Positions 135-45,907 of a stretch of 45,907 nucleotides of DNA are shown here, one piece after another. Each line of letters begins with the position of its first letter. The first letter of the stretch is position 1. The stretch is from a virus. The stretch covers positions 1 through 45,907 of IMG/VR virus record IMGVR_UViG_3300042517_000301; one strand, 5' to 3'. The notes beneath the pieces are model-generated. The model saw only the letters and a program-made list of their open reading frames with translations, did not search any database and was not told where the DNA came from. A program made the translations under genes and the position numbers.

Positions 135-1805
135 GCCTACGCTCATCCACTCGTTCTCTTCGACACTGACAGTGATACTAGGCTTGTGCTCGCACCAAGC
201 ATCCTGATACGCCTTCCACAACTCTAGATGATCAATGGCCGTTAGAGCCTTCTTACGAGTCGTAGGAGCCTTCTGTGGGAAAGAGAATACCATAATCTCA
301 GAATTGGTTACATCCGCCTCACAGGGCACTCCAGAGGCTTCTAAGAAGCGTGTGAGAGGATCCTTGACATCTCCACGGACACGCCTAATGTAATAAGGAG
401 CGTGACGAGGATGAATACCACTAGCGGAATCAACCAATTGTGATACAGTACCACTAGGCTTAACGCAAGTAATCGCTGTTGACTGTGGAATCTTAAGTGC
501 CTTAGCGAAGTCCTTATTTGTTTTAATAGCAACTTCTCGCATCTCCTTGAGGTTGGGGACGATCTGCATGGTACCATTACCTGTCATCCACTTGGAGTCG
601 AAGATACCTGTGAGCGACACGCCGAGCAGACGCTCTTCTTCTGTGTTCTGCTTCCACACTTTACGCAAATACTTAAAATCTGTGAGAGTAGCCTGCATCG
701 TACCAAGAATTGTAGCGAGCCGAACCTTACGCTTAAGGTCATCAAGATTATCTGATGCACGAACCACAACCTCAGTAAGATTACAAAACTGGTGCGGACG
801 TAGAATAATCTCAGAGCATGGATTAGTGCCAAACGCATACTCTGTGTCGCGCCTCCCATTCTTAGCGGCCTGCTTGATTGCAGCCTCACGATTAAAGATA
901 CCACGCTCTCCACTCTTCGACTGGTAGAGGCTTAGCCATTCTTCCATGAACGCATCCATACCCGGCTTCTCAGAGTAGGCCACGCTGTTGTTAGCAAGAG
1001 AGCGCTGAACATTGTCCTCCCACCACTGACCCGACTTTGCATTACGCATCCGTCCGTCAGACAAATTACTAAGCGAAATGAGGGCTGAGCGCCGTACCCC
1101 ACCAACCACGACCACTTCAGCAATCTTACATACAAGATCATGACACTCCAAACTAGTCAACTTGCGTCCAGCAGCATTCTCAAACAAGCGAGTGGTAAAA
1201 AGAAACAAGTCTTCCAACGGGGCGGGTCCACTAGCACGACCACCAAACGTCTTAAGACGAGCACCAGACGGACGTACCTGAGAGTAATCAATGCTAGGCT
1301 TCTGACCAGCATACAACATAGCAATCAACTCTCGTAGTGCTCGTGCCCAACCAGCCTTAGAATCAGCAACAATAATGATAGTTGTACTATCCTCAAAGTG
1401 CTCATTTACTACGGGCAACTGATTAACCTCGTCGCGCTCAACACTAAACCCTACTCCTACGCCGTTCATGAGGATATAAAGGATCTCATCGAAGCATCGT
1501 GGATGATTGACTGGAGTGTAAGAACAATTATACCCAGCCACATTCTCACGAGTCAGGGCTGGGCCAGCAGTCATTAGTGCTCGCATACTGGGCATCACTT
1601 CTAGGCCAATGATAGCGTCAAGCAACTCTGCTTTCAACTCTGCTGTCATCTTATAATTATTATTAACACGGAGATGCTGATCCATGAACTCTACATAACG
1701 ACTGACCGTTTCGGGCCAGTACTCTCTACGATTCTCAGCGTCTAGCCAGCGAGCATAACGACTCGTTGCAATGAACGTCTGATAATCAGTTGGCAAACTC
1801 ATCAT
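1..1805 (-). CDS. nrdJ: Class II (adenosylcobalamin-dependent) ribonucleotide triphosphate reductase, main part
   Basis: This encodes residues 1-601 of a roughly 639-residue reductase that makes dNTPs from NTPs; the rest is at 45659-45773 across the circle joint. The sequence resembles the monomeric Lactobacillus-type RTPR. It has a disulfide-forming Cys in NCSYTP (residue 94) and the active-site block GTNPCSEIIL with Asn328, thiyl-radical Cys330 and Glu332, then Cys341 in FCNL. A CxxxxC redox tail lies in the other half. It is shorter than the roughly 740-residue Lactobacillus enzyme. The start at ATG 1805 follows AGAAAGG at good spacing (a second ATG follows at 1802). It is the downstream end of the replication operon, after a tRNA. 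No separate small subunit or glycyl-radical activase is present, which fits a B12 enzyme needing host cobalamin. Confidence 0.93.
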   Translation of the reverse strand, partial: MMSLPTDYQTFIATSRYARWLDAENRREYWPETVSRYVEFMDQHLRVNNNYKMTAELKAELLDAIIGLEVMPSMRALMTAGPALTRENVAGYNCSYTPVNHPRCFDEILYILMNGVGVGFSVERDEVNQLPVVNEHFEDSTTIIIVADSKAGWARALRELIAMLYAGQKPSIDYSQVRPSGARLKTFGGRASGPAPLEDLFLFTTRLFENAAGRKLTSLECHDLVCKIAEVVVVGGVRRSALISLSNLSDGRMRNAKSGQWWEDNVQRSLANNSVAYSEKPGMDAFMEEWLSLYQSKSGERGIFNREAAIKQAAKNGRRDTEYAFGTNPCSEIILRPHQFCNLTEVVVRASDNLDDLKRKVRLATILGTMQATLTDFKYLRKVWKQNTEEERLLGVSLTGIFDSKWMTGNGTMQIVPNLKEMREVAIKTNKDFAKALKIPQSTAITCVKPSGTVSQLVDSASGIHPRHAPYYIRRVRGDVKDPLTRFLEASGVPCEADVTNSEIMVFSFPQKAPTTRKKALTAIDHLELWKAYQDAWCEHKPSITVSVEENEWMSVGAWVYENFDSVSGISFLPKSDHSYRQAPYEEITKEEYEALTAACP

Positions 1806-5523: not shown

Positions 5524-6261
5524 TTAGTTATTTACGCGGACAAAACCAATGACATCACTAACGTTGCGTGTCATGTGTGCAACCATCCCGCCGTCGGACG
5601 GGTTAGTACCAGAGGTGTTACCCTCAATAGTCGTGAACTTAGTAGCCTTCATTGGTGCCACCTCAACGATACCAATGTGATCAGCGATACCATCATCGTC
5701 CCAATCGAAGAGGACTACATCACCAGACTTAGCCTGATTAGCAGGCACAAGTGCAAGGTAGTTACGATTATACTTAGCGTCCTCTAGGACGTAGGGGCAG
5801 TAAGCGTAACGCTCATGCTGCTTCCAAGCCTTGCTCTTAGCGCCAACGAAACAATACGTTACGAACATGGCGCACCAAGGACCAGTGATACCATACCAGT
5901 TAGAGAACATAACCTTGTTAGACTTGGGCGGCTGCTCACTAACGCCAATGAACTGCTGTGCAATATCAATAGCAGTAGCACCAACGTACTTCTTACTGCG
6001 AGACTTTGCTCGCTGCTTCATCATAAGCGGCTGCTTCTTAATACCCGTCAGGTAAGCATGCAACTGATCATCATAATTAGAATTAATATTCTTCTCCTGA
6101 TAACCCAGATCCCACTTAGCAGCACGAGTAGCACGAGCACTAGCCTCACCATAGATGCTATCAATCTTACCAGTGTAATACCCAGTAGTCTTCAGCAACT
6201 TCTGTGCTGCGGATACCTCTGGACGCTTCATGTTCGGACTAGTCAACTTTAGTGTAATCAT
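5524..6261 (-). CDS. Endolysin with peptidoglycan-binding and CHAP domains
   Basis: A 245-residue lysin. The N-terminal part (about residues 12-75) matches a PG_binding_1 repeat (AAQKLLKTTGYYTGKIDSIYG). The C-terminal part (about 95-245) is a CHAP amidase/peptidase: catalytic Cys in GPWCAMFVTYC, His in ADHIGIVE, then TIEGNTSG. No signal peptide is seen, so release depends on a holin; the holin-like genes are over 38 kb away on the opposite strand. ATG 6261 follows AAAGGAG. Its place inside the replication operon is unusual. Confidence 0.87.
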   Translation of the reverse strand: MITLKLTSPNMKRPEVSAAQKLLKTTGYYTGKIDSIYGEASARATRAAKWDLGYQEKNINSNYDDQLHAYLTGIKKQPLMMKQRAKSRSKKYVGATAIDIAQQFIGVSEQPPKSNKVMFSNWYGITGPWCAMFVTYCFVGAKSKAWKQHERYAYCPYVLEDAKYNRNYLALVPANQAKSGDVVLFDWDDDGIADHIGIVEVAPMKATKFTTIEGNTSGTNPSDGGMVAHMTRNVSDVIGFVRVNN

Positions 6262-13671: not shown

Positions 13672-13890
13672 TCAAAACCCCCAAGTAAGAATACGCTCAT
13701 CCAATTCCTTAAGCGCAGCACAACAACCATCATTAATATCAATAACCCAATCAGGCACAGACACACTATCACCCGTAGGATCCTCATACAAATCAAAATA
13801 ACAATCAAGACCATTATGAAGCACAAAAATAGCATTATTAATACTAGTCAAAGCCGCAACAGCCTCCCCACGCTCAATTAGATACTGCAT
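13672..13890 (-). CDS. Small hypothetical protein
   Basis: A 72-residue protein from ATG 13890 (MQYLIERGEAVAALTSINNA), preceded by GGAGGAG. It overlaps the last 17 bases of the ArdC-like gene. Predicted mostly helical with GLDCYFDLYEDPTGD in the middle. The longer frame to 13947 encodes an artefactual hydrophobic segment. Function unknown. Confidence 0.66.
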   Translation of the reverse strand: MQYLIERGEAVAALTSINNAIFVLHNGLDCYFDLYEDPTGDSVSVPDWVIDINDGCCAALKELDERILTWGF

Positions 13891-14776
13891 CAAACTCCTC
13901 CACACTAGCAACATTAAGAACCATATCAGCAGCACGCTGAGCAGCATTAACAGCCGTCACCAACAGACCCGGATCATCTTTACAACGCTTAGCCCACTGA
14001 CGAATATAATCAGCAGACTCCTCACGCTCAATAGGAACACCAGCATTCACACACACCATAGCCGCACCAAACTCAGCAACCAACTCTTCCTTAGCATAAC
14101 GCTCAGAACCAAACGACTCAACCTTAAAACGATTCTGACGAGACTCATGACCAGTAGAATGAATAACCTCATGAAACAACGTATGATAATAATTAAACAT
14201 ACCCATAAACTGAGACTTCTCAGGCATCTGAATCAAATCACCAGAAGGAGAGTAAAAAGCACGATCACCACCATGACCCAACACAACACCAGTATACTCA
14301 AACCAATCAGCACCAACTCCAGCAGCAACTCCAAACGGATCATCAGGAACAACCTCCTCAACAACCACAGGAACATACTCCTCAACACCATCAATCTGAG
14401 CAGCATTAAACACACGATAATACTTCATCAAATAAAACGACTTAACCTTATCAGACTCCTCATCCTTCTTAGACACACGCTTATTATACACAACAAGCGT
14501 AGACTTCTCACCCTCACGCACCTGACCACCAAGAGACTCAGCATTCTTATACGTAAAGAAACGAGGATCACTCCAACCACGATCAGCCATAACACACGAC
14601 AAATACAAACTATTAAAACCATTATACGCCGAATCATAATAACCATTACGCGGAGCAAACGGATCATTACGACCACGAACAATCCAAGGCTTAGTCCACG
14701 GAGCCTCACCCGACTCCATCAAACCAATAAGAGACTCAGCAACCTGACCATACATAGCATTACGATCAATCCCCAT
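13874..14776 (-). CDS. ardC: ArdC-like antirestriction protein (ssDNA-binding plus metallopeptidase-like)
   Basis: A 300-residue protein with ArdC layout. The N-terminal domain (about 1-130) starts with YGQVAESLIGLMESGEAPW and includes NGFNSLYLS and VREGEKSTLVVYNKR, matching the ssDNA-binding DUF1738 region. The C-terminal zincin-like domain has TLFHEVIHSTGH (HExxH at about 202-206) and the distal Glu in KEELVAEFGA. ArdC proteins protect incoming single-stranded DNA from host restriction; in a phage an early protective role is expected. It is the largest gene of the early block. Confidence 0.88.
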   Translation of the reverse strand: MGIDRNAMYGQVAESLIGLMESGEAPWTKPWIVRGRNDPFAPRNGYYDSAYNGFNSLYLSCVMADRGWSDPRFFTYKNAESLGGQVREGEKSTLVVYNKRVSKKDEESDKVKSFYLMKYYRVFNAAQIDGVEEYVPVVVEEVVPDDPFGVAAGVGADWFEYTGVVLGHGGDRAFYSPSGDLIQMPEKSQFMGMFNYYHTLFHEVIHSTGHESRQNRFKVESFGSERYAKEELVAEFGAAMVCVNAGVPIEREESADYIRQWAKRCKDDPGLLVTAVNAAQRAADMVLNVASVEEFDAVSN

Positions 14777-33217: not shown

Positions 33218-33757
33218 ATGCCATTATTTGGTAGTGGTCACGAAATAGTAACTAGTGCAACTCGTCCTAGTGTGCCTACTGATGGGCAAATTATTTATGA
33301 AACAGATACTAAACGAGTATTAGTATACAATGGTACTAGTTGGGTTATTGTAGATAATCTTAGTCTCACTTATACACCTACTTTTTGGGTTAGAAAATTA
33401 TCTTCAATGACTGGTGCAGGTACGGTTGTTTTTGATAATACTGTTGAAAATATAGGCACACATTATTCTACTTCTACTGGCTTATTTACTGTTCCCGTTG
33501 CGGGTTTATACACATTTACTTGTCAAACTATTGCAACTACTGTAGGAAGTTATTGGTGTTTTAGAATAAATGGAACTAATTATGTTGGTCCAACACCATA
33601 TAAAGATGTGGCTGGTTATTCAAGTTTAAGTGCAAGTATTAATATTAATTTATCTGTAGGAAATACAGTGGGTATTTATAATATTTCAGGGCAATTCTAT
33701 GGTGATGGTGGTAATATTCATAATAATTTTTCAGGAAGTTTAATTTCTTATCGTTAA
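33218..33757 (+). CDS. C1q-like receptor-binding protein
   Basis: A 179-residue protein: linker IIYETDTKRVLVYNGTSWV, then a C1q/TNF-like jelly roll (STSTGLFTVPVAGLYTFTCQ, DNTVENIG, ININLSVGNTVGIYN, and a C-terminal FSGSLISYR). Trimeric C1q folds serve as phage tips or minor virion decorations. AAGGAGGTG precedes its ATG. The codons are A/T-rich. C1q assignment rests on the typical GxFTxPxxGxYxF pattern. Confidence 0.78.
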   Translation: MPLFGSGHEIVTSATRPSVPTDGQIIYETDTKRVLVYNGTSWVIVDNLSLTYTPTFWVRKLSSMTGAGTVVFDNTVENIGTHYSTSTGLFTVPVAGLYTFTCQTIATTVGSYWCFRINGTNYVGPTPYKDVAGYSSLSASININLSVGNTVGIYNISGQFYGDGGNIHNNFSGSLISYR

Positions 33758-43874: not shown

Positions 43875-44033
43875 ATGACTGATAAGAAGAAGAAGTTGGC
43901 TAAGTATAAGATGTCTAACAATAAGAAGGGTGGGTCTAGTATGATTAAGCCTATTGGTTCTGTTGTTTTGAGTCCTGATCAGCAGGAGAAGACGATGACG
44001 ATGGGTAAGCAGCCTATTAAGGTTTACCCGTGA
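43875..44033 (+). CDS. Small basic hypothetical protein
   Basis: A 52-residue protein starting MTDKKKKLAKYKMSNNKKGG and ending QPIKVYP. AAAGGAG precedes ATG 43875. It overlaps the holin start by four bases. Highly charged N-terminus; function unknown, possibly lysis-associated by position. Confidence 0.62.
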   Translation: MTDKKKKLAKYKMSNNKKGGSSMIKPIGSVVLSPDQQEKTMTMGKQPIKVYP

Positions 44034-44224
44034 ACTGGCGGCAGGTAATTACCCGTGCGGTGCTTACGTTTTTGCAGGCGTTTCTTGCTGTGATTATTGT
44101 TACTGGTGTTGAGAATCTTGGTTCGTGGGATTCGTTGAAGCCTGCTGTGGTTGCTGCGGTTGCTGCTTTGTTGTCGTTTGCTTATAATATTGTTAAAGAA
44201 TTGTCTGCGAAGGCTGGTGTGTAG
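44030..44224 (+). CDS. Holin candidate
   Basis: A 64-residue protein with two hydrophobic spans, AVLTFLQAFLAVIIVTGV (about 10-27) and PAVVAAVAALLSFAYNIV (about 38-55), joined by a short loop. The basic start NWRQVITR and charged end KELSAKAGV fit a class II holin. GTG overlaps the prior stop. It would time membrane permeabilisation to release the CHAP endolysin encoded in the early arm. Confidence 0.78.
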   Translation: MNWRQVITRAVLTFLQAFLAVIIVTGVENLGSWDSLKPAVVAAVAALLSFAYNIVKELSAKAGV

Positions 44225-45261: not shown

Positions 45262-45263
45262 AT

Positions 45264-45318
45264 AAAAAAAATAGGGAGACTATCTAGCATTATGCCGGAT
45301 AGTCTCCCTTTTTTATTT
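45264..45318. terminator. Bidirectional intrinsic terminator between converging arms
   Basis: An 11-bp perfect stem GGGAGACTATC (45274-45284) with GATAGTCTCCC (45298-45308), flanked by a run of A on the left and T on the right, works on both strands. It separates the end of the late operon from the end of the muralytic gene. Confidence 0.95.
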
Positions 45319-45585
45319 CATATGATCATTAGTGTAACAATCCCAAGCGAGCCAAGGATTGCCATAATTCTTTTTTACCCACATTGCTAGGCGATGCGCT
45401 GCCCATAATTGTTCTTTGATACTAGCATGATGCATACTATCAGGCTGACCCTTGCGTTTGAAGTCATCCCAGTTCTGGTTAGTCATTCCCATGCCGCCAG
45501 CAAAACTATAATTATAATTCTGTTTCCAAGCAATGCCCATCCAGCCTTTGCCGGGTTGTTCGCATTGTCCTATTTTTACTAGCAT
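45313..45585 (-). CDS. Lysozyme/Rpf-like (transglycosylase-like) muralytic protein, domain part
   Basis: A 90-residue domain with catalytic-type Glu in GQCEQPGKGW, then NYNYSFAGGMGMTNQNWDDF, the Gly-rich turn and WxxF helix of the Rpf/transglycosylase-like family, and a second Cys in LAWDC that may bond with the first. It would cut the peptidoglycan glycan strand. The ATG has only a weak AAG upstream. The frame continues upstream through one TGA into a signal-like leader, so the natural product may have been a secreted or membrane-anchored enzyme. Confidence 0.72.
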   Translation of the reverse strand: MLVKIGQCEQPGKGWMGIAWKQNYNYSFAGGMGMTNQNWDDFKRKGQPDSMHHASIKEQLWAAHRLAMWVKKNYGNPWLAWDCYTNDHMK

Positions 45586-45588
45586 TCT

Positions 45589-45672
45589 TCAAGTTGGAGG
45601 GTATTCTGGTGCCATTCTAGGCATAGGGATTAGTAAAGAGGCGGCTACAATAACAGCGCTAAGAGTTGCCAA
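45589..45672 (-). CDS. Signal-like leader ORF in frame with the muralytic gene
   Basis: TTG 45672 (GAGG nine bases upstream) opens a 27-codon frame with a hydrophobic core ATLSAVIVAASLLIPMPRM, ending EYPPT then TGA (45591-45589). Two codons later the muralytic ORF begins in the same frame. It overlaps the reductase end by 14 bases. It could be the original N-terminus (signal or SAR segment) cut off by a nonsense codon, or a separate small membrane peptide. Confidence 0.55.
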   Translation of the reverse strand: MATLSAVIVAASLLIPMPRMAPEYPPT

Positions 45673-45907
45673 TGTTCACTACCTCGCAACCATCGGCAGT
45701 ACACGCTAGTGTCTGACTAGAATCAGTATTGTCTTCCAACTCGTACTCACTAAGTTTCTCCCACTGAATACTAGTAGGACTAGCAGCAGTCAGAGCCTCG
45801 TACTCTTCCTTAGTGATCTCCTCATAGGGTGCTTGGCGATAAGAATGATCAGACTTGGGCAGGAATGAGATACCAGAGACACTATCAAAGTTCTCGTATA
45901 CCCAAGC
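45659..45907 (-). CDS. nrdJ: Class II ribonucleotide reductase, C-terminal part (wraps to position 1)
   Basis: This holds the C-terminus of the reductase, entered from the contig end: residues matching 1-134 are repeated, then SPTSIQWEKLSEYELE, and the end ACTADGCEVV with Cys626 and Cys631 (CxxxxC), the redox pair that re-reduces the active-site disulfide via thioredoxin in class II enzymes. The stop is TAG (45661-45659). It is partial here only because the window is linear. Confidence 0.92.
   Translation of the reverse strand, partial: AWVYENFDSVSGISFLPKSDHSYRQAPYEEITKEEYEALTAASPTSIQWEKLSEYELEDNTDSSQTLACTADGCEVVNIGNS
45774..45907. repeat. Terminal direct repeat, right copy (contig overlap)
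   Basis: Same sequence as 1-134 apart from 45781 (t against a). It allows the linear contig to be closed; the unique length is then 45,773 bp. Confidence 0.93.

Follow-up and report, generated by a model that had tools for sequence, protein, structure and literature searches.

A conserved UGA between the leader and the muralytic domain of a tailed-phage gene is probably read through

RNA viruses and eukaryotes offer well-known cases of readthrough at a single conserved stop codon. In phage Q-beta, a leaky UGA decoded as Trp yields A1, a minor extended coat product made under the normal code of the host. SAR endolysins are signal-anchor phage lysins. In-frame stops also occur in stop-recoded phages (tables 15 and 4), where they may hold back lysis-type genes (Borges et al. 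2022, as cited in PMC11210395). Our literature search returned no such readthrough in a muralytic gene of a standard-code tailed DNA phage.

We analyzed a virus record of 45,907 bases, the whole of which is referred to as the window. A 134-nt sequence is shared, with one mismatch, by its two ends (1-134 and 45774-45907), from which we take the record to represent a nearly complete circular map of ~45.8 kb. The nearest capsids, at ~30%, belong to phages of Arthrobacter, Microbacterium, and Cellulosimicrobium, and judging by this similarity the hosts are probably actinobacteria; a search of genomes for a capsid match, made to find the host, returned none. Elsewhere in the window, the DNA polymerase is split into two ORFs, 8186-7224(-) and 7227-6484(-), which overlap by GTGA (ATGA in lineage L019) and match phrog_17 nearly gaplessly at 666-978 and 981-1238. 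There is no obvious slippery sequence, and the two ORFs could represent either split subunits or coupled translation. The window also encodes a C1q-domain protein in the tail region that is possibly involved in receptor binding (33218-33757(+); PF00386, E 4.7e-12) and an ArdC-type antirestriction protein with a zincin-like metallopeptidase domain (13874-14776(-)).

Translation of 45672-45313(-) gave a single reading frame of 120 codons with one internal stop, the TGA at 45591-45589, as the preliminary description of this DNA had claimed. The product reads LATLSAVIVAASLLIPMPRMAPEYPPT, then the TGA, then RMLVKIGQCEQPG and onward to a terminal HMK, and the joined leader-enzyme would have 119 residues. 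The leader ORF (45589..45672, minus strand) comprises 27 codons from a TTG start at 45672 to the TGA and encodes a hydrophobic stretch, a variable linker, and YPPT. That TTG is the only start codon available to the leader, with two in-frame stops just upstream. A Shine-Dalgarno-like GAGGT (45681..45685, minus strand), read from the sequence, lies 8 nt before it and is conserved in L001, L002, L003, and L018. The muralytic (lysozyme/Rpf-like) domain occupies 45313..45588 on the same strand, ends at a TAA (45315-45313), and contains the presumed catalytic Glu codon at 45559..45561 (residue 38 of the joined protein). A possible restart codon, the ATG at 45583..45585, is located 3 nt past the TGA and codes for Met30. 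The leader and the end of the upstream gene share 14 nt; this upstream gene, with its 3' end at 45659..45907 (minus strand), runs across the circular join at position 1. By inspection this gene is ribonucleotide-reductase-like, its sequence suggesting a B12-type enzyme, and its homologues in the relatives share 74-96% identity. On the 3' side, an inverted repeat with a T-run (45263..45312), also read from the sequence, is probably a terminator common to the UGA gene and a convergent plus-strand gene.

This locus resembles Q-beta A1 in that a phage gene carries a single, putatively leaky UGA under the normal code, with a minor extended product that is here predicted. The two differ in what the stop separates. 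In Q-beta it comes after a complete coat protein, to which the extension is an optional addition, whereas in this dsDNA tailed phage it severs a signal or anchor from the catalytic domain. SAR endolysins likewise join an N-terminal hydrophobic segment to a muralytic domain, but here the UGA detaches the leader, and the phage encodes its endolysin in a separate gene. In contrast to the stop-recoded phages, in which reassignment is genome-wide and often accompanied by a suppressor tRNA, this phage has one such UGA, a standard code, and no such tRNA.

To characterize the encoded enzyme, we compared its domain with known families. The match to PF06737 (Transglycosylase-like) was weak, at 16.7 bits and under the cutoff of 27, while the relative L040 reached 25.9, and one relative matched a transglycosylase PHROG (E 1.1e-8). 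The domain contains an invariant CEQP motif, in which the presumed catalytic Glu follows the Cys (CE) in 14 of 14 aligned proteins. It shares this catalytic-type motif with PF06737/Rpf-like proteins, together with a weak structural resemblance to RpfB and the Phi6 lysin. The structure model was of low confidence (mean pLDDT 62.5), and a fold search with it gave no match below E 0.69; in this model, a helix extends from the UGA residue to the presumed catalytic Glu, and the domain from Met30 retains nearly all of it. The phage also encodes an endolysin (5524-6261(-); phrog_21825, E 1.3e-29), located among the replication genes and not with the holin, and a holin (44030-44224(+); phrog_443; PF16945, 26.6 bits) that points toward the UGA gene from close to the convergent end of the late operon. 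Given this separate endolysin and holin, the product of the UGA gene would be an accessory muralytic enzyme.

We scanned IMG/VR for related loci and found the leader and the same TGA kept in seven of seven lineages, comprising the window and six further phage lineages from independent metagenome assemblies (L001/L004/L006/L017/L021/L022, which are near-identical copies; L002/L023; L003/L019; L018; L020; and L041). These lineages are related by shared ancestry and hence are not seven independent tests. In all seven, the context of the site is ACT-TGA-A[AG][AG]-ATG, so that codon 29, directly after the TGA, is always Lys or Arg and the +4 base is always A. The same +4 base follows only 2 of the 17 other TGA stops in the window. 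Variation among the seven lineages was seen at 27 of the 31 fourfold sites and 9 of the 11 A/G-twofold sites, which indicates that an ordinary stop had room to turn into TAA or TAG, and for several neighbouring genes the stop codon does differ between orthologues. Pattern searches that allowed TGG, TAA, or TAG at the site recovered no such version in the clade; matches in L024 and L025 were due to chance and are not members. The leader of L020 and that of L041 are uncoupled from the upstream gene, each starting at an ATG of its own behind its own ribosome-binding sequence, and the TGA is still present in both. In L041, the reductase-like gene and the leader are separated by an inserted HNH-like gene (by inspection; ~350-960).

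Both sides of the TGA were found to evolve as protein-coding sequence. Across the seven lineages, substitutions were of the coding type (third position) on either side, no other stop and no frameshift were seen, and one lineage had a 3-nt in-frame deletion in the leader. In six lineages, pN/pS was 0.26 for the leader and 0.12 for the domain. The YPPT before the stop is invariant in the seven lineages, and no part of the leader is more conserved; in the six, EYPPT underwent synonymous change only, and the linker just before it was loose (pN/pS 0.56). With the TGA and coding-type change on both sides kept in seven lineages, the arrangement is beyond chance. We then scanned every stop in all frames of the aligned genome, up to ~16 kb, requiring third-position-biased change on both sides. 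Besides one antisense case, confined to a single lineage, this recovered the TGA of the UGA gene in two lineages, under thresholds strict enough that lineages such as L002 and L003 fell short individually. The gene has the features by which readthrough genes are recognized: a single in-frame stop, coding conservation on both flanks, a conserved UGA with +4 A, and a sense codon in homologues. A stimulatory RNA structure is a non-obligatory criterion for such genes, and after this stop we found no covarying pairs and single-sequence fold z-scores of +0.4 to -3.5. A frameshift at ACU-UGA was considered and rejected: the +1 frame meets a TAG within a few codons, and the -1 frame encodes a different 26-aa peptide.

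Eight relatives were found to be unbroken, with one continuous frame and an N-terminal hydrophobic segment. At the position of the TGA they carry W, W, F, F, F, Y, Y, and W: Trp in L005/L013 and L012 (YPPHWRTWLRIGMCEQP) and in L040, Phe in L014-L016, and Tyr in L032 and L039. A hydrophobic leader is present in all proteins; by inspection those of L012, L039, and L040 are signal- or anchor-like, and that of the TGA clade has no N-terminal basic residues. The unbroken relatives share an aligned YPP, except L039 (WPP) and L040 (VPN), after a variable linker. Met30 is invariant only in the TGA clade, and the unbroken relatives have T, A, V, or similar residues there. The preliminary description had held that Trp is natural shortly before the CE. 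An aromatic residue is indeed usual at this site in the unbroken members, but the site lies 9 residues ahead of the Cys of the catalytic motif and is a different position from the Trp of Rpf proteins, which stands 6 residues ahead.

L032 is a same-locus orthologue of the UGA gene: it follows the reductase-like gene, overlaps its end, and is unbroken with Tyr at the site. By upstream-gene identity, L020 (TGA) is sister to L032 (93%), and both are ~75% from the window clade. This kinship of the backbones indicates that the lysozyme gene has been exchanged between them and that broken and unbroken forms occupy the same slot. L032 also has a second tRNA-like gene, of ambiguous identity, beside its tRNA-Leu (848-930(+); ARAGORN anticodon acca; Rfam tRNA, 35.6 bits). 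No cellular relatives of the UGA gene were found in the genome contigs searched, and isolated phages gave weak matches only. Relatives lacking the leader, or with unrelated sequence upstream, would have spoken against readthrough, and the relatives inspected showed neither; their TGA and aromatic residues instead support the readthrough suggested earlier.

Several explanations without local readthrough were weighed. A sequencing or assembly error is scarcely credible, as the TGA occurs in seven independent metagenome assemblies whose neighbouring codons differ. A recent nonsense mutation or decaying gene would fit a TGA within an otherwise open frame, but this is highly improbable, as all seven lineages share the TGA, both flanks are under purifying selection, and no further stop or frameshift is seen. 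Both options had been left open in the preliminary description and are excluded by the independent assemblies. Reassignment of UGA to Trp across the genome (table 4) could be invoked because one UGA aligns with Trp, and table-4 phages exist (PMC11210395). However, crude calling of 57 genes in the window gave TAA 26, TGA 17, and TAG 14 as stops, in agreement with the earlier view that TGA is a normal stop elsewhere and the event is local, and TGG is used 142 times for Trp in the long genes. The window has no tRNAs besides Leu(UAA) and Leu(CAA), no suppressor tRNA with a UCA anticodon was found in it or, leaving aside the ambiguous tRNA-like gene, in L032, and the scan of ~16 kb of aligned genome detected no other conserved in-frame stop. 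Since TGA ends many genes and no UGA-reading tRNA was found, the code is standard and the recoding would be local. Selenocysteine insertion would be at odds with the absence of a conserved hairpin after the UGA and of Cys at the site in relatives, and we regard either form of recoding as very improbable.

The strongest rival is termination followed by restart alone, in which the leader is released as a 27-residue membrane peptide, a cytoplasmic enzyme is initiated by the terminating ribosome at the ATG at 45585, and no joined protein exists; the peptide would be a small lysis peptide or a translation-coupling leader. A general mechanism of restart after leader peptides has been put forward for bacteria, Actinobacteria included (PMC4833913). 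At this locus, every one of the seven lineages has the ATG 3 nt from the stop, the Met is absent from the unbroken relatives, and its invariance in the TGA clade alone fits a genuine restart codon. In the structure model, a domain begun at Met30 would keep nearly all of the helix with the presumed catalytic Glu. Restart alone leaves unexplained why YPPT is conserved and matches the YPP of unbroken homologues, and why the stop is exclusively TGA with a +4 A and Lys or Arg at codon 29; the same-locus orthologue L032, moreover, makes one chain. We consider restart as the sole event unlikely. Restart may also occur alongside readthrough.

The explanation we favour, as the likely one, is that the UGA is leaky and decoded mainly by host tRNA-Trp, yielding a little leader-bearing enzyme and mostly the 27-residue leader peptide. 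That ribosomes read through some of the time is probable from the comparative evidence: readthrough would account for why the joint is conserved, why only UGA is used, and why it is followed by an A at +4 and by Lys or Arg. In E. coli, UGA-A is reported to be misread by tRNA-Trp with particular ease (Engelberg-Kulka 1981, cited in PMC5289835), which may not hold for the host of this phage. We propose that the gene codes for an accessory peptidoglycan-cleaving enzyme meant to carry an N-terminal signal or anchor, and that an aromatic codon just before the catalytic helix became UGA in this clade, in the leaky context UGA-A. The majority of ribosomes would stop there and release the leader peptide, while a minority would insert an amino acid, most likely Trp, and complete the 119-residue leader-enzyme, which would end up at the membrane or outside the cell. 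The AUG 3 nt on may serve as a restart site for some of the ribosomes that terminate; a cytoplasmic enzyme made in this way is plausible from the invariance of the Met, and the mixture of cytoplasmic and exported enzyme envisaged in the preliminary description could then arise. A more elaborate version, which we consider doubtful, is a regulated switch in which readthrough rises late or in a given host state (release factor 2, charged tRNA-Trp) and the leader peptide, cytoplasmic enzyme, and exported enzyme are made in a set ratio.

The UGA would thus work as an inherent brake on a wall-cutting enzyme that could do harm and is co-transcribed with nucleotide-metabolism genes. A low level of exported enzyme would suit an operon that may be expressed before lysis is wanted. 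If this is true, the leader escapes standard gene callers, and the enzyme is wrongly annotated as cytoplasmic. A leaky stop would then be a cheap way of rationing an enzyme that would kill the host too early, and a local counterpart to the genome-wide stop recoding of lytic genes.
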